DNA of 29,836 nt. It comes from a virus. The DNA lies in the IMG/VR virus record IMGVR_UViG_3300036913_000049, positions 1 through 29,836 of that record; one strand, given 5' to 3'. Made by a program: the position numbers and the translations under genes. Of the stretch, positions 9,324 to 29,836 are shown piece by piece (position 1 is the stretch's first letter; every line of letters starts with the position of its first letter). Below the pieces are notes generated by a model that saw only the letters and a list, made by a program, of their open reading frames with translations, did no database searches and was not told the origin of the DNA.

Positions 9324-10061
9324 TCATGCATCTGTCGTGCCTTCAACTGCGATTTGTGGATTTACGAGTGCGACCGCCCAACTGCCTTTAGGTACTTTCC
9401 GCCGCAGCCATATACCACACATTTCTCCGGGACCCAGGTCGCCCATTTGACAACCATCATCATAATCCATTGGCATCGTGAAACTGAGACTTGTGGGGGC
9501 TGTATCCTCATTGGCGATGTGCTGGACATAACCGGGCTGTGCTGATGGTGCTTCTATTGCCATCCTAAATTGGCTGTCCTCAATTGGCTTGCCGACCGCA
9601 TGGAGGACCTTTGTTGTGCTATTGGACCCCCTTGTGCAGCCTGTGAAGCTGCACGTTGGACGGCTACCAGCCTTCCCGGTATACAGTATTTCCTCGTCCT
9701 CTAGGAAGAACGCCCCTTTGCTCGGAAAACTGGCATTATCAACGCAATCTACTGTGTTTTCTACACCGTTACTTGCCAATTGGGTCCTGAGGGTCGTATA
9801 GGGCGAATCAGATACTAGGTATAGCCGTGCATCGGTCAGGGGTAAGGTTTCGTGGTTGTTCATTACGAAGATGCACCGATATTTTTCACTGCCATTCTTG
9901 CTTTCATTAGCCGTGACCTTTGCGAACAGGTTCTCCATAGTAGCGTCTTCGATCTGTACCGAAGATCGATATTTCCCCAGATTGTCGGGGCTCGATTCGC
10001 CGTCGCCGGTGGCGGTCGATTTACTGCCGTCATATATTATGTCTGTTTCAGTTACGGGAAT
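9324..10061 (-). CDS. Tail structural protein with no canonical start codon
   Basis: The first ATG is at 9938 (204 residues), but coding-like sequence continues upstream in frame: PDNLGKYRSSVQIEDAT directly precedes MENLFAKVTANESKNGSEKY, as a beta-strand lead-in would in phage tail proteins of this type. The frame is open back to a TAA at 10083-10085 and contains no ATG, GTG or TTG before 9938. The best candidate start is an ATT at 10061, 5 bases after GAGGTGG. If the start is 9938 the product is simply shorter. Residues around CVDNASFPSKGAFFLEDEEI through GCTRGSNSTTKVLHAVGK repeat a module of the tail tube protein at 28990. It probably forms part of the tail tip. Confidence 0.65.
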   Translation of the reverse strand: MPVTETDIIYDGSKSTATGDGESSPDNLGKYRSSVQIEDATMENLFAKVTANESKNGSEKYRCIFVMNNHETLPLTDARLYLVSDSPYTTLRTQLASNGVENTVDCVDNASFPSKGAFFLEDEEILYTGKAGSRPTCSFTGCTRGSNSTTKVLHAVGKPIEDSQFRMAIEAPSAQPGYVQHIANEDTAPTSLSFTMPMDYDDGCQMGDLGPGEMCGIWLRRKVPKGSWAVALVNPQIAVEGTTDA

Positions 10062-11271: not shown

Positions 11272-11508
11272 TTATTTCAAATCTTCCTCTTTTTGTTTCC
11301 CAAAACCCGCCACTTCCTTAGTTACTCTATTTGTTATCAGAATTTCATAGGCGGATTCGCCGGTATCCAGTTTCTCTACGTCTTCAGGTGATAACAGTTT
11401 TAATACCGCTTCCCTGAACCTGGCCGGGCATGTGGAGCTGACAATGTAGTTTGGCGGGCCGCTGCTAGGTTTCATTCCGGGATTTTTTCTGTGCAAGATC
11501 CACCACAT
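11272..11508 (-). CDS. Small hypothetical protein, 78 aa, starting inside a tandem repeat
   Basis: The protein begins MWWILHRKNPGMKPSSGPPN and has a helical segment with ARFREAVLKLLSPEDVEKL (about 29-47) and a Lys/Glu-rich end. I recognise no family. Its first codons lie inside copy 1 of a 64-bp tandem triplication that also carries the last codons of the gene upstream. In the ancestral arrangement this ATG probably followed that gene's TAA by 3 bases; the duplication pushed them apart by 128 bases. It follows the maturation cassette and precedes the distal-tail-like gene. Confidence 0.6.
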   Translation of the reverse strand: MWWILHRKNPGMKPSSGPPNYIVSSTCPARFREAVLKLLSPEDVEKLDTGESAYEILITNRVTKEVAGFGKQKEEDLK

Positions 11509-11681
11509 GATTTAATCCGCCTTTGGATCGAACTCGAAGTGTATAACCTGCCGTGTGCAAGATCCACCACATGATTTAATCCGCCTTTGGATCGAACTCG
11601 AAGTGTATAACCTGCCGTGTGCAAGATCCACCACATGATTTAATCCGCCTTTGGATCGAACTCGAAGTGTATAACCTGCCG
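11491..11681. repeat. Three exact tandem copies of a 64-bp unit
   Basis: Copies start at 11491, 11555 and 11619 and are identical across at least 63 bases. Each holds a gene junction: the last codons and TAA of the cysteine-motif gene (true end at 11640, in the third copy) and the ATG of the next small gene (used at 11508, in the first copy). Since 64 is not a multiple of 3, the extra copies cannot extend either protein cleanly. Confidence 0.97.
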
Positions 11682-12527
11682 CTTGGGGGCATAGTAGCTT
11701 GTTACGTAGCCTCTAAACATTGGGTGGGTGGTTATGACCTGCCCCAGGTTCAAGTCCCAAGTGGCGGGCAGACTCAGAATCTCAACCAGTTTGTCCACAA
11801 TTCCCGAATCCTCGCCAAATTTGGTCTTTTCGAGATCCCGCATGACTCCAAGCCAGACCTTTGCCCTTTCGCTTGATTCCTCACAGTTATAACGACATGG
11901 GAACCACGGAATTACCTTGAACCCATAATAACGAAGATCTGACCTTATTAGAGGGTCAAAGTTTGAAAGAGATATTGAGCCATCTAGATTCTTTTTGTGG
12001 GGCATGGCTAAGGCGGCTGGCATTACGGGATCAAAATTAACCTTGAAGTTCTCTGTAAAGGCCGCGCTGCAACAATCCGGATAGCCCAGGTATCCGCCCA
12101 TCCTAGCGTGATCACAACCGCCGAGTTTGAGTTCTGCCTTTACGAAGTCCTCGGCTATATCGAGATCGCGAGCCACCACCCCAAATACCATGACATCTGG
12201 CCCGAGCCGATCTGTTGGAAAATGGGTGTGAGAGAACCCTTCGTATTGGAGGCTCCGCCTCATTGGCAGAAACGCCAGTTTGTCCCTCATTATTTGGGCT
12301 ATCTCGTTATCGTAGTTGTGCGGGGATAGGTGGAAGATATTCGCCTCCCTCTTGCCCTGCCTGACCATTTCATACTCACTTTCATAGGCTAAGGTCGCTA
12401 TTTTTCTCTTTAATCCCACTAAACCATGATCGGGATACTTTGCCATGAAAGCTGAAAATGGTTTTGGATCTGTGATCTGAGTTTTTAAAGTTTCCTGATT
12501 TTGATTATCCATATTTACGCCCCCCAT
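11640..12527 (-). CDS. Cysteine-motif protein resembling DUF483, partner of the radical SAM enzyme
   Basis: The 295-residue protein has two conserved-looking cysteine motifs: LGYPDCCSAAF (about residues 146-156) preceded by GGCDHARMGG, and FPCRYNCEESSERA (about 207-220). I associate this YPxCC + PCxxxC combination with DUF483, an archaeal/bacterial family of unknown role; the match is from memory. The cysteines could hold an iron-sulfur cluster or other metal. The start overlaps the end of the radical SAM gene by 13 bases; an alternative ATG at 12512 is 2 bases past that stop. Tight coupling suggests that it acts in the same modification pathway, as partner, chaperone or second enzyme. Confidence 0.72.
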   Translation of the reverse strand: MGGVNMDNQNQETLKTQITDPKPFSAFMAKYPDHGLVGLKRKIATLAYESEYEMVRQGKREANIFHLSPHNYDNEIAQIMRDKLAFLPMRRSLQYEGFSHTHFPTDRLGPDVMVFGVVARDLDIAEDFVKAELKLGGCDHARMGGYLGYPDCCSAAFTENFKVNFDPVMPAALAMPHKKNLDGSISLSNFDPLIRSDLRYYGFKVIPWFPCRYNCEESSERAKVWLGVMRDLEKTKFGEDSGIVDKLVEILSLPATWDLNLGQVITTHPMFRGYVTSYYAPKRQVIHFEFDPKAD

Positions 12528-13762
12528 GAATCACCATGCGGCGAATCTCCGTGATCATCGTAATCTCCATGACCGCCTGATTCCGAATCTCCATGCACCT
12601 GCTGTCTTGGCTGGCAGGCCGGTTGCTGGTGCCGCTGTTGCTGCTGCGGATATGGTTCTACCCATTTATTTTTAAGGTAGTAATCTTGATAAAAGTTTGG
12701 TACATCTATCGCCAGCCTGCGGCCAGGGTCCATAGCTCTTATGTGACGTTCCAAGTATTGCAGGAGTGCATAATAAGCCTCGCAGAATTCGGTTTTATTT
12801 CTCACGTCGCCGCCTACTCCCTCAGCAGGGCAACCGCCCGCGCAGATTTCAAAATATCTGCACCCCTTGCACTGGGTCTGCTTTAGCATCTCTGACCGGA
12901 CTAAAGTGGCCTGATGGGGTTGGTAGTAATATCCAGACTCAAAGCATCTGTCGCACCTGGATAGATTGCCATCCGGCATTATGGTGGTGCATCTGGTCAC
13001 GAGATAGTCACATCTCGTATAGAGACAGCAATTTAGCCCCTGGCCTTTCAGGTTTTTCATATTCTCTATGACCACTGCGGGCCGGAACTCATTTGGATGC
13101 TCTATATATGCCTGTGCAAATTTGAGAAAGGCTATTTTCAGCTCTTCGGGCGAGAGTTTATACTTCAACAGATGGCTTGCCTTGCAACTCGGCAGGAACA
13201 TTTGGTTGTATCTACCATCGCTCTTGGTTTCAATTCCCCACCGAATTAATTCATCAATCTTAGAAGGCGATGCATTGAGTTTAGTGAGAACCGTTATGGT
13301 GCCCACCTTTATCCCTTCGTCCTTCAGCCACTTTATGTTTTCCTGTAGCCTCTTTTGGTACTCTCGGTTGGCTTTCTTATCCCTCGGACCTCTTAAGGTA
13401 TTGAATTTTGCCGGTCCATCTATCGAGACACCAACGCTCTGCATATGATATTCCTTAATTAACCTGATGTGTTCTGCCGTGAGATTCCAAAGGGCTGTCT
13501 GCATTGAGGGTTGACCGCCAACCGACTTTATGGTTTCCAATGAGAACTTAAAATCTTCTATTGGCAAACTGGTTACGTCTCCGCCGTGGAGGATAACTTG
13601 GGGATGTTCATCCTTGCCCCATTGTTTAGATATGTCGCGCAGGGTAGCCGCCATAGCCTCTTTATTATATCTCCCCGGTATGGATGGCTTGTTCTCGTCC
13701 TCAAAGCAATATTCACAACCTGTAGGGCAGTCCAACAGCATGTACCATAATATCGTGTTCAT
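12515..13762 (-). CDS. Radical SAM/SPASM peptide maturase with a substrate-like C-terminal tail
   Basis: The 415-residue enzyme begins MNTILWYMLLDCPTGCEYC, with the SAM-binding cluster motif CxxxCxxC at residues 12-19. A glycine-rich ILHGGDVTSLP and VGVSIDGPAKFNTLRG follow, as in the anSME/SPASM peptide-modifying branch. Residues from about 245 to 340 carry the SPASM cysteines (CLYTRC, RCTTIMPDGNLSRC, CKGCRYFEICAGGC), for auxiliary iron-sulfur clusters. A Gln/Pro-rich linker leads to a tail (390-415) with four His-Gly-Asp triplets, the same motif that fills the giant neighbour encoded just upstream. It uses S-adenosylmethionine to make a radical on a peptide side chain. A CGAGG site precedes the ATG. 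Confidence 0.9.
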   Translation of the reverse strand: MNTILWYMLLDCPTGCEYCFEDENKPSIPGRYNKEAMAATLRDISKQWGKDEHPQVILHGGDVTSLPIEDFKFSLETIKSVGGQPSMQTALWNLTAEHIRLIKEYHMQSVGVSIDGPAKFNTLRGPRDKKANREYQKRLQENIKWLKDEGIKVGTITVLTKLNASPSKIDELIRWGIETKSDGRYNQMFLPSCKASHLLKYKLSPEELKIAFLKFAQAYIEHPNEFRPAVVIENMKNLKGQGLNCCLYTRCDYLVTRCTTIMPDGNLSRCDRCFESGYYYQPHQATLVRSEMLKQTQCKGCRYFEICAGGCPAEGVGGDVRNKTEFCEAYYALLQYLERHIRAMDPGRRLAIDVPNFYQDYYLKNKWVEPYPQQQQRHQQPACQPRQQVHGDSESGGHGDYDDHGDSPHGDSWGA

Positions 13763-13803: not shown

Positions 13804-16797
13804 CTAATCGTAGAATGTATTGTCGTGTGGGGTATCCTTGTGCGGTAAGTCGTTATGGTTATCTGCGTGAGGCGCATCTCCGTGTGGGATGTCCCTGTGG
13901 GGTATTGGATTATCGCTATGCGGTGAATCGGAGTGCGGTGCATCTTCGTGCGGTATCCCGCAATCGCAGTGCCAAGACGAATCTTGGAAACTGGCTCCTT
14001 CTGAGTTGGCGTGGGCCGTGTTGCCGTGTGGTACTTCTGCCTGTATTACTTTTGCTGGCGTATTGCACCAGCTTGGGTCACCTGTGCTATCCGAATAGCC
14101 ATGTTGGGTGAATAGAATCTGATAATCCCAGATAGGCTTATATTCAGGTCCGGGACCTTCGTGTGAGCCTGTCACAATTGCATGACACCAGCTAGGATCA
14201 CATTTTGGGCTTGATTGCTGGCAACCGCTCGGGTCTGGATTCCCTGTTGAGGCGCTTCCTGTGATAGTTGTGCATTCATCTATGTAGGCACCGTGATCAC
14301 AATGATCCTGGTTTAAGAAGGGCACTGCGTCTTGGTTTGCGTGGAGCGTGTTGCCGTGGGGGGTGTAGGGCTGATTGGCATGGTTTGAGAAATCTGGAGT
14401 CGGACAATCACATTCATGATCTGCGTGAGGAGTGTCTGAGTGCGGCGTATCTGTGTGGGCTGGTCCACCATCGTTATAGATAACATCATTGTGAACGATA
14501 TCGCTATGATGCCAATCATCCGAGTGCGGAGTATCCGAGTGCGGAGAGCCTGCGCAATCGCAATGGATTGCCTTGTCTGTGAAGGGCACTGAATTCGAAT
14601 CGTAATGATTATTATCCAAATGAGAGTCTATATGCAGATTGTCATCGGAATAATCGGTGTAACCGTCTTCGTAACCTGCGTCTCCATGCTCTACCGCGGG
14701 AACATTGAAATGGTCGTCAAAGTCTGGTGAGACTAATGAGGGGTCGTAGCTATTTTTATGGGGTACTGCCGCCTGAATGACTTTGGCTGCATCGTTGCAC
14801 CAGGTCGGGTCTAGGGAGGAGTCTATATAAGCAAACTGGTTGAAATCAACCTGCCCGTCAACCATATGGCACCAACTCGGGCTACATTTCGGATGGCTCG
14901 GCGGGCATCCTCCTGAGTAGCCTTGCAGCATGGTGCATTCATCTGTCCAGATCCCACTGTTACAATGATCCTGGTTTATGAACGGAATGGGATCAGCGTC
15001 CGCATGACCACAATCGCAAAAAGGCATATCGGTAAAGCTATCACTATGCGAAACATTGCCGTGGACTATTTCGTCATTATGGCCCCCGTTGTGTTCATCT
15101 TGATAAGGTGCATCTCCGTGCGGCACATCATCGTGGTTTGAGTCTCCATGCGGTGTGTGGTCCCAAGGCGAATCTGCGTAGATATCCTGATAATTATTTT
15201 CATGAACCGGGCCGGGCGTATTCGAATGATTGCAAAAGTCTGAATGCTCGATTACTTGGTTGGTATCCTGCCAGTTTTGGTGAATCGAGTCTGCAAAAGC
15301 TCTGTCGGAGTAGTTTGAAAAGTCTGCAAAAGCTCTGTCGGAGTAGTTTGAGAAATCTGAAAATGTCGTATTATTATGGGTGGTATAGTCTGAATGCGCT
15401 TGATTTCCAAATGGACTGTCGGCGTGATTCGTATCAATGTGGTATGGGCCGTCGATATGCGAGACATCGGAATGGGTAACATCGCTATGATTTGAAAAAT
15501 CCCCATGACTAGAATCGATGTGGGCGGTATCGCCGTGAGCTCCCGTATGATTATAATGAGCCACGTCACTGTGGGAACTATTTTCGTGGGCTAGATCTAC
15601 ATGGGATGATGGGGAATCCGTATGCGGGTCGTTATAATGTCCCGACATGTCGCTATGGGGGGTATTCCCATGTGCGTTATCGGTATGCCAGTTATGCTGA
15701 TAGCTATCATAATACCCATCATTGTGCTGCTGATAAGCGTAATCTACATGGGCCTGGTTTCCGTGCGGATTCCCGTCATTATGTGCTGTATTGCCGTGGT
15801 TTGCGAAATCCGAATGTGAGATATCTCCGTGCGAAGCATCTGTATGTGGCGTGTCGCCATGATCATTAAAATTGCTAAATGGGGTATCTCCATGACTTGC
15901 GGAGTTTGTGTGATCATTGTAATTGCTAAAATCCGTATTTGAGAATGGCGTATCATTGTGGTTGGTCCAATCGGAATGTGCACTGCTATTTTCAAATACA
16001 CTATCGGCATGCGCTATATCATGATGGTCCGAAAAATTTCCAAACGGCGTGTCGCTATATCCTGGATCGTTAAAATGTGACTGGTCGCTATGATCAGATA
16101 TATCGAGATGAGCCTGATTTTCGAAAGGTGTATCAATATACTCAGAATCGTTTGAAAAGGCTACATCCTCATGATAGCCTGCGCTGGCATCATCAACATA
16201 ATATTCGATGGCATCGGAGTGAGGGGTATCACCATGCTCAACCCCTCCCTGGTCGGCGTGCGGATTTTCACACCCTTCGTTGAGATGGTGATATGCTTTA
16301 TATCGGTAACCTTCCACCTCATCTAAATATGCAGAATTGGCATGGGACGAATTGCACCAACTTGGATCTGATGAGCTTTGATTATGTCCATATTGGAGAA
16401 ACCGTGTGTGGGTTGCCCCGTCGCCCGGATCATAGCTGCTACATTCTGAAGTTTTTCCTGACCTTGGGTCGCTGGGCGGACATCCTGGCTGTCCGGTTGA
16501 TGGGTCTATCCAAGGTTCCCTATCAAGAAGATAGATAGGTACCCATTCGTCTTTGGGGATACCGCTATTACAATGCTCTGCGTCGCCGTGCGGTGCGTCT
16601 AAATGGCCGATTGGGTCGTTTGTGGCTTCGGGACCTCCCGGATCGGATTCTTGAGCTGGACCGAGACCATCTGCGAAAACGTATGTGTCGTTGTGTGTAC
16701 CAGAATCGCAATGCGCTACATCTAAGTAGGGAATCTCTGCTACATCTTCATGTGAGCTATCTAGATGTGCATTGGTCCAACCGATACATTCACCCAT
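13804..16797 (-). CDS. Giant His-x-Asp repeat protein, probable substrate of the adjacent radical SAM enzyme
   Basis: The 997 residues are dominated by motifs of three residues, aromatic (mostly His, also Phe, Tyr, Trp), any residue, then Asp or Asn, often in five-residue steps such as PHGDTPHSDAPH. I count roughly 150 by eye. Three cysteine-rich modules (about residues 75-155, 590-680 and 830-930) interrupt the blocks; they share HC(N/D)xG, a CxxSxPKC-like part and a DPxWCN motif. There is no signal peptide, transmembrane segment or known catalytic domain. It overlaps the stop of the gene before it (ATGGGTGA) and is followed 41 bases later by the maturase. It is probably a fibrous tail or surface component modified many times; metal binding by the unmodified repeats is an alternative. 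Confidence 0.8.
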   Translation of the reverse strand: MGECIGWTNAHLDSSHEDVAEIPYLDVAHCDSGTHNDTYVFADGLGPAQESDPGGPEATNDPIGHLDAPHGDAEHCNSGIPKDEWVPIYLLDREPWIDPSTGQPGCPPSDPRSGKTSECSSYDPGDGATHTRFLQYGHNQSSSDPSWCNSSHANSAYLDEVEGYRYKAYHHLNEGCENPHADQGGVEHGDTPHSDAIEYYVDDASAGYHEDVAFSNDSEYIDTPFENQAHLDISDHSDQSHFNDPGYSDTPFGNFSDHHDIAHADSVFENSSAHSDWTNHNDTPFSNTDFSNYNDHTNSASHGDTPFSNFNDHGDTPHTDASHGDISHSDFANHGNTAHNDGNPHGNQAHVDYAYQQHNDGYYDSYQHNWHTDNAHGNTPHSDMSGHYNDPHTDSPSSHVDLAHENSSHSDVAHYNHTGAHGDTAHIDSSHGDFSNHSDVTHSDVSHIDGPYHIDTNHADSPFGNQAHSDYTTHNNTTFSDFSNYSDRAFADFSNYSDRAFADSIHQNWQDTNQVIEHSDFCNHSNTPGPVHENNYQDIYADSPWDHTPHGDSNHDDVPHGDAPYQDEHNGGHNDEIVHGNVSHSDSFTDMPFCDCGHADADPIPFINQDHCNSGIWTDECTMLQGYSGGCPPSHPKCSPSWCHMVDGQVDFNQFAYIDSSLDPTWCNDAAKVIQAAVPHKNSYDPSLVSPDFDDHFNVPAVEHGDAGYEDGYTDYSDDNLHIDSHLDNNHYDSNSVPFTDKAIHCDCAGSPHSDTPHSDDWHHSDIVHNDVIYNDGGPAHTDTPHSDTPHADHECDCPTPDFSNHANQPYTPHGNTLHANQDAVPFLNQDHCDHGAYIDECTTITGSASTGNPDPSGCQQSSPKCDPSWCHAIVTGSHEGPGPEYKPIWDYQILFTQHGYSDSTGDPSWCNTPAKVIQAEVPHGNTAHANSEGASFQDSSWHCDCGIPHEDAPHSDSPHSDNPIPHRDIPHGDAPHADNHNDLPHKDTPHDNTFYD
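15289..15354. repeat. 33-bp tandem duplication within the repeat gene
   Basis: Two copies of a 33-bp unit, starting at 15289 and 15322, differ at one base near the end. The unit encodes eleven residues of the pattern FSNYSDRAFAD, three aromatic-x-(Asp/Asn) motifs. It is the freshest visible step in the growth of the repeat protein and stays in frame. Confidence 0.9.
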
Positions 16798-28989: not shown

Positions 28990-29836
28990 TCAGACCGTGC
29001 TAACCATAATGGACTCTCCGACTGCATGGAGGGCTTTCGTTGTGTCGTGTGCCCCTCTGGTGCAGCCTGCGAAAGTGCAAGCGGGCGTAGTCCCGCTCTT
29101 GCTTGTATACTCTATCTGCTCGTCCTCGATGAATAGGGTTCCGGCATCGGGGAATTTAGCATTATCCACGCAGGCAACCGTTGTATCCGAGGCTCCGGCT
29201 TCTAGTTCAGTCCTGAGTGTAGTTTCCGCGTTGGTCTCATAATAGAAACCCCCTGTTCCTGATATCGTTAGATCCTCTTCCTTTAGGGCTTTTACATCAA
29301 AATCGGCGGTGAATCCATCCAAGTGGCCGAGACCCGCGATGTTATCCTTGAATATGCCGTCTCTGGTGAACAGGACGAACATGATGGGCGTATCTATTGT
29401 GCTGGCGTAGATGAGCCACGCGGCCCTATTTGCATCAAAAAGCCTCTTAACGGCAGCGGTCCAGCTTTTATGAGCTGGCAGAAACTCTTTATTCAGGCCG
29501 GAATCGAAGTTCGTGGACTCGACTTTATCCTTTGTCATGGACAAAGAGACTGATAACAGCTCTGCCAGCTTGACCACCGACGTTCTTTTGCCACTGCCCC
29601 TCACCTTGTCCGCGTGATTGCCGCCAGATGCTAACGAGACGCGACCTCTGAGGTAGTCAAATACACATAGGCTCGTGATATCGTGCCAATCGCCTGCGCC
29701 GTTGGTCTGGCGCTCGATCAGGAACGTCTCACCCTCTGCCCAGAACCTCGAATCCCAGGGGGCGGTATATTTCTTATGGTTCTTGTCTGGGTAAAGGGCG
29801 ATTTGGCTAAAAGTTGTAAGTGGGGCGTCTGGGTTG
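28990..29836 (-). CDS. Major tail (tube) protein, 5' end cut by the window edge
   Basis: The frame is open to base 29836; a GTG at 29604 is internal, since coding-like sequence with LCVFDYLRGRVSLASGGNHA continues upstream. The 281 visible residues have a tube-protein pattern: VVKLAELLSVSLSMTKDKVE, then AWLIYASTIDTPIMFVLFTR and HLDGFTADFDVKALKEEDLT, all beta strands around a short helix. The last 75 residues form a separate small module, CVDNAKFPDAGTLFIEDEQI to GCTRGAHDTTKALHAVGE, which recurs in the gene at 9324. The tube polymerises from stacked rings of this protein; its place just before the chaperone and tape measure genes supports the call. Confidence 0.72.
   Translation of the reverse strand, partial: NPDAPLTTFSQIALYPDKNHKKYTAPWDSRFWAEGETFLIERQTNGAGDWHDITSLCVFDYLRGRVSLASGGNHADKVRGSGKRTSVVKLAELLSVSLSMTKDKVESTNFDSGLNKEFLPAHKSWTAAVKRLFDANRAAWLIYASTIDTPIMFVLFTRDGIFKDNIAGLGHLDGFTADFDVKALKEEDLTISGTGGFYYETNAETTLRTELEAGASDTTVACVDNAKFPDAGTLFIEDEQIEYTSKSGTTPACTFAGCTRGAHDTTKALHAVGESIMVSTV

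Follow-up and report, generated by a model that had tools for sequence, protein, structure and literature searches.

A viral radical SAM/SPASM enzyme ends in a short tail of His-Gly-Asp (HGD) triplets, and comparison with its homologues argues that this tail is no accident but a dedicated, working part of the enzyme, because strong selection keeps it in most relatives across very different viruses. The reading that we tentatively favour, giving it slightly less than an even chance, is a virus maturase of the three-residue-cyclophane type for tail-fibre repeats, whose built-in substrate-mimic tail docks in its own peptide channel. The enzyme is encoded in IMG/VR record IMGVR_UViG_3300036913_000049, all 29,836 nt of which were analysed and are called the window here. 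According to the open reading frames of the window, three genes follow one another on the minus strand in the order repeat protein, enzyme (P0001) and DUF483-like protein (P0003), with these features:

13804..16797, minus strand: presumed substrate, a 997-aa repeat protein of the virion region with 149 [HFYW]-x-[DN] motifs, upstream of the maturase gene.
12515..13762, minus strand: radical SAM/SPASM maturase P0001, 415 aa, with CxxxCxxC at C12/C16/C19 and eight SPASM cysteines (C246, 251, 270, 298, 301, 307, 311, 327).
12596..12664, minus strand: Gln/Pro-rich flexible linker, about residues 367-389 of P0001, from the translation and AlphaFold2 pLDDT.
12518..12595, minus strand: C-terminal substrate-like tail of P0001, residues 390-415, HGDSESGGHGDYDDHGDSPHGDSWGA, with four HGD and one YDD.
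11640..12512, minus strand: DUF483-like partner protein P0003, 290 aa (Pfam DUF483 match of 0.0006, below the gathering score).

The stop codon of P0001 lies at 12517-12515 on the minus strand, and P0003 has an alternative upstream ATG at 12527 that would overlap the 3′ end of the maturase gene. A second contig of the same virus, IMGVR_UViG_3300037212_000012, is identical over 10,208 bases and is therefore not an independent sample. At the 3′ end of the DUF483-like gene, a 64-nt unit stands in three exact tandem copies (window 11490-11681), and the second contig terminates within this array, including 127 nt of it; the array may be an assembly breakpoint or a genuine short tandem repeat.

Translation confirmed exactly the initial description of the enzyme's end, in which a Gln/Pro-rich linker is followed by 26 residues with four HGD triplets. 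The linker PYPQQQQRHQQPACQPRQQV directly precedes the tail, and the triplets stand at residues 390, 398, 404 and 409. HxD occurs nowhere else in the protein, and none of 20,000 shuffles of P0001 gave four HxD within 26 residues. Linker and tail (residues 368-415) had an AlphaFold2 pLDDT below 50 and are predicted to be disordered. The tail was not placed in the active site in this model, which was built without cofactors and in which docking is hardly to be expected for that reason. Across the family, the first clustered motif follows the last SPASM cysteine at a median of 48 residues, a spacing ample for the tail to reach the active site.

By its cysteine motifs, its matches to maturase HMMs and the nearest folds of its model, P0001 appears to be a radical SAM/SPASM enzyme that modifies peptides or proteins. 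It matched Pfam Radical_SAM (2e-12, 48 bits vs 29.5), phrog_1802 (2.5e-24) and the SPASM model TIGR04085 (27.4 vs a cut-off of 27). Across 67 sequences, C12, C16, C19, C251, C270, C298, C301, C307, C311 and C327 were invariant and C246 nearly so. Weak NCBIfam matches were to peptide-maturase models (TIGR04083, DynA, sulfatase maturase, AmcB and YhhB), with scores far below the cut-offs: 72 bits vs 300 for the best, TIGR04083, then 67 vs 450 for DynA, 61 vs 425 for AmcB and 52 vs 445 for YhhB. Since no curated NCBIfam cut-off was reached for the named cyclophane maturase families (AmcB, YhhB, DynA, GrrM, FxsB), P0001 is a SPASM peptide maturase that we assign to none of them. The AlphaFold2 model had a mean pLDDT of 84.9, and its nearest solved folds in a Foldseek search were anSME (9e-16), ChlB (3e-12), CteB (1e-10) and SkfB (7e-9), along with SuiB. 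These are peptide-modifying radical SAM enzymes, including peptide-bound anSME and ChlB with its precursor (ChlB-ChlA). HMM matches and folds together bore out the initial annotation in treating the protein as a maturase-type enzyme.

Scans of viral contigs yielded 83 family members, from which 71 non-redundant homologues from phages and archaeal viruses, mostly 25-41% identical, were retained after near-copies were removed. The C-terminal tail held at least two HxD in 51 of the 71 (median five), one in seven and none in 13. For comparison, 39 SPASM proteins outside the family were obtained from a scan of genome contigs, and in none of them did the final 60 residues contain two or more HxD. 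The initial annotation had regarded such a tail as abnormal for maturases of this class; this holds for the SPASM proteins outside the family only and is wrong within the viral family, where 58 of 71 members carry at least one HxD in the tail. By its own criterion, a lack of the tail in most homologues with the same genomic context would have counted against it, and the outcome was the opposite, with the tail present in most.

On the phylogenetic tree, the tail must have been gained or lost at least five times. Tail-less members fall mainly into two clades (one around L066-L068/L140, the other around L050/L105/L117), plus L009 and L069, and some of them, including members of the tail-less clades, still adjoin HxD-repeat genes. 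Because these clades keep their repeat-protein neighbours, the tail is not essential for catalysis as such. No other nearby enzyme carries the tail, and on this ground we rejected a general tag common to several enzymes. The same module, with a single HAD triplet in the tail, was found at L010:6332-9492, a haloarchaeal plasmid (Halomicrococcus) where it adjoins baseplate genes, and at L048:7348-10236, a related viral contig; these two loci indicate that the system extends to archaeal viruses or proviruses. Downstream of a tail-less related SPASM radical SAM gene in an Aenigmatarchaeota contig stands a distinct small ORF that is rich in H-x-D (L016:9046-9408) and might encode a free-standing precursor peptide for this chemistry.

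We then turn to the presumed substrate, whose 149 motifs compare with 42.9 ± 5.3 in shuffles and which contains 67 HxD, 11 of them HGD. Its motif is an aromatic residue at i and Asp or Asn at i+2, with a middle residue that is usually not Gly. The initial claim that the enzyme's tail carries the motif of its neighbour thus stands as a resemblance, but the neighbour's motif is broader than HGD. Given an aromatic residue, the probability of Asp/Asn at i+2 in the 997-aa protein was 0.74 against a background of 0.21; by residue it was 0.85 for His, 0.85 for Phe, 0.50 for Trp and 0.48 for Tyr, and at most 0.12 for the other residues tested. Spacing between motifs varies from 3 to 9 residues, 5 being the commonest, a variability more in keeping with local reactions at individual motifs than with a fixed structural repeat. 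An HxD-repeat ORF was found near the maturase in 62 of the 71 homologous loci. Over these 62 repeat proteins, the probability of Asp at +2 was 0.79 given His and 0.15-0.23 given Phe, Tyr or Trp, vs 0.03-0.07 for other residues. In the products of known cyclophane enzymes, the residue at i is Trp, Phe, Tyr or His and is linked to the Cβ of an Asn, Asp, Ser, Arg or Ala at i+2; Tyr-Asp and Trp-Asn/Asp are among the pairs joined (PMC11002830). The aromatic(i)/Asp-Asn(i+2) grammar of the repeat proteins is this three-residue cyclophane rule.

We infer that the repeat protein is a tail fibre. The 997-aa protein itself had no match in Pfam, NCBIfam or PHROG. Its gene follows a tape-measure-sized gene (1291 aa) and has weak tail/baseplate matches around it, and among the related repeat proteins there are some with matches to PHROGs of tail fibres or virion structure. 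In the Thermus phage Cumys, the corresponding module comes after baseplate and tail collar fibre genes. Inside the repeat gene of the window, two tandem 33-nt copies that are 97% identical (15288-15353) represent a recent duplication within the presumed substrate.

Selection on the tail was assessed over 18 disjoint pairs of related enzymes. The His and Asp codons of the tail motifs had 8 nonsynonymous changes in 159 codons (0.05 per codon) alongside 58 silent changes, compared with 444 in 1239 (0.36 per codon) for the remainder of the tail (p=1e-18) and 1274 in 5945 (0.21 per codon) for the core (p=2e-8). These figures are to be read with two cautions: a single member of each pair served to define the motif positions, and short repeats tend to be aligned motif to motif. 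Core His and Asp codons had 140 nonsynonymous changes in 533. These rates point to strong purifying selection on the tail-motif His and Asp, and the low rate at these codons means that an otherwise variable tail keeps exactly its motif residues.

The tail also differs in composition from the repeats that it resembles. Gly is the middle residue in 170 of 262 tail motifs (65%) but in only 315 of 1907 substrate motifs (16.5%; 56 paired loci, p=1e-9). Tails hardly ever have Asn as the acceptor (HxN:HxD ratio of 5:233), whereas it is common in substrates (179:1701). Tail composition did not correlate with that of the local substrate (rho 0.06 and 0.03), and tracking of the substrate in its Asp/Asn acceptor or its aromatic residue was rejected. 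Because the Gly bias differs from that of the substrates and composition is uncorrelated, the tail appears to be a generic motif set by the enzyme family and not by the neighbour. In the window's nearest relative (L135, 41% identity), an Asn-rich substrate accompanies an Asn-rich tail (HVN-HGD-HMN-HIN), which fits substrate-likeness in that lineage.

The mechanism that we infer combines cyclophane chemistry with a tail that docks in the active site and has a regulatory effect. The repeat protein, the radical SAM/SPASM enzyme and the DUF483 protein would form a viral protein-modification cassette. The enzyme would most likely link the aromatic ring at i to the Cβ of Asp/Asn at i+2, and crosslinking many times along the neighbouring tail-fibre-type protein would rigidify the fibre. 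The flexible linker could present several minimal HGD motifs to the peptide channel of its own or a partner molecule. As a built-in substrate or pseudosubstrate, the HGD tail may keep the radical centre occupied or protected until it is reached by the fibre repeats, and the tail may become crosslinked in its turn. Competition with the substrate, tethering of it and modification of the tail, the roles that the initial annotation proposed, are all compatible with the results. Counting against this reading, the fixed Gly would agree just as well with a role in binding some other partner.

Such binding defines the main rival, docking in trans to the DUF483 protein or the fibre, which has a modest chance of being correct. 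Here the fibre-mimicking tail would be bound outside the active site by a repeat recogniser (the DUF483 protein, an assembly chaperone or the growing fibre bundle) and would hold the enzyme on its substrate. An HGD that is fixed whatever the substrate sequence suits a binding epitope, and of the 69 maturase loci whose sequence extended far enough for a judgement, 65 had a DUF483-like gene; the restriction of the tail to this one enzyme of the locus is likewise in its favour. However, DUF483 presence was not associated with the tail, as tail-less members also have the gene, and we rejected a tie between the two, although few of the six independent pairs differ and a sign test on them cannot reach significance. 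Nor was a binding domain recognisable: the confident model of P0003 (pLDDT 91.7) had no match in the PDB (best E 0.15), and the protein, which has an invariant P-x-C-C motif, apparently adopts an unsolved fold.

A self-modifying maturase is a comparably minor candidate, in which cyclophanes formed on the enzyme's own HGD tail would switch or time the crosslinking of the fibre, in the manner of borosins and in a new enzyme class. Borosins (OphMA; methyltransferases fused to their own core peptide) are, like P0001, modifying enzymes with a substrate-like C-terminal tail (PMC7878506, PMC8429565). In contrast to P0001, they belong to an unrelated enzyme class, and the window has a separate large substrate as well; the likeness is one of architecture alone.

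We consider a metal-binding role of the His/Asp-rich end improbable, whether for iron or for another metal and for instance as a help in loading the three Fe-S clusters. A short flexible tail with four to five His and Asp, both of them under selection, would suit this role. The strict H-x-D spacing, the preference for Gly and the i/i+2 grammar shared with the presumed substrate argue otherwise, as does the absence of the tail from the 39 SPASM control enzymes, which also need clusters, and from 13 family members. There is a slim chance that modification of the tail causes the enzyme itself to be linked to the virion fibre or packaged as part of it. Tail and fibre share a motif and their genes often overlap or abut, but the catalytic core of the enzyme is fully conserved.

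The closest known counterpart of the locus is the module of the Thermus phages. Relatives of P0001 in Cumys, phiMa and phiLo are 28-33% identical; those of Cumys and phiMa end in EHGDYTDHGDAPHGDHWDG and that of phiLo in FHADEHGDHNDHGDHTDLPEAKS, and the Cumys end is close to that of P0001 (GGHGDYDDHGDSPHGDSWGA). Cumys and phiMa have the same three consecutive genes in the same order as the window (H-x-D repeat protein, radical SAM enzyme, DUF483), and P0003 is homologous to the third gene. The Cumys paper reports the module in phages and prophages, calls the product of the repeat gene unknown, suggests DNA modification and notes InterPro fusions of DUF483 with radical SAM or methyltransferase domains; it describes the module only and does not mention the motif or the tail (PMC11437467). 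We regard DNA modification, with the repeat protein incidental, as very unlikely. In its support, cyanobacterial homologues adjoin deazapurine DNA-modification genes and no other function had been proposed (PMC11437467). Against it, the nearest folds are peptide-modifying enzymes, the HxD-repeat gene recurs near the enzyme at 62 of 71 loci, the tail bears the same motif, and the proposal was made in a paper that does not mention HxD (PMC11437467).

The suggestion of the initial annotation that the tail is a relic of recombination between the two genes is, like an origin by slippage, almost certainly wrong and was rejected: family-wide conservation, down to homologues only 25-33% identical, purifying selection on His and Asp and the distinct middle residue show that the tail is neither a relic nor a copy of the neighbour, the best DNA match between tail and repeat gene in the window is 24 nt at 79%, and the slightly greater closeness of tail DNA to its own neighbour than to other repeat genes (mean percentile 0.65 vs 0.5 expected) could be explained by codon usage.

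Among characterised enzymes, the 3-CyFE/triceptide group (XncB, OscB, MscB, YxdB, HaaB, YhhB) comprises SPASM radical SAM enzymes with an aromatic(i)-x-residue(i+2) rule that includes Asp/Asn, as in the window. A triceptide-type arrangement, with a repeated aromatic(i)-x-Asp/Asn(i+2) substrate adjoining the radical SAM gene, is likewise found here (149 vs 43 motifs; 62/71 loci). P0001 nevertheless lies below all curated cut-offs, although its best curated HMM matches include cyclophane enzymes. Unlike in the 3-CyFE systems, the presumed substrate is a large virion protein without an evident leader, and the enzyme bears its own copies of the motif. In His-Xaa-Ser (Hxs) systems, radical SAM enzymes stand beside a protein with many His-x-residue repeats; those repeats are H-x-S whereas the window has H-x-D/N, and no Hxs model was among the best 25 NCBIfam matches of P0001. 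The closest solved fold and sequence-profile match, anSME (4k36-4k39), shares 16% identity with P0001 in the structural alignment and has a different substrate motif; we know of no HGD-like tail on anSME.

The three-gene module in Thermus phages is thus already published, and we found no report of the HGD tail of the maturase. A literature search on phages, radical SAM enzymes and tail-fibre or virion modification, with most subscription journals outside its coverage, returned nothing on H-x-D repeats or the tail. If the favoured reading is true, many tailed viruses of bacteria and archaea, including hot-spring Thermus phages, use radical chemistry on His-x-Asp repeats to harden or functionalise a tail fibre, with an enzyme that is self-controlled by a built-in imitation of its substrate. 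The maturase would then act naturally on a large repetitive protein and not on a short leader-core peptide, and protein modification would replace the published guess of DNA modification for the module. Thermus phages with the module can be cultivated, which makes both the fibre chemistry and the self-control accessible to testing there.

Elsewhere in the window, two 204-aa proteins (9324-9938 and 28990-29604) have a common C-terminal block, FP..G..F.EDE...YT.K.G..P.C.F.GCTRG...TTK.LHAVG, which suggests duplicated virion or baseplate proteins. A TnpB-like gene on the minus strand (827-1948) has about 55% identity to TnpB of Geobacillus and Rhodovastum plasmids.
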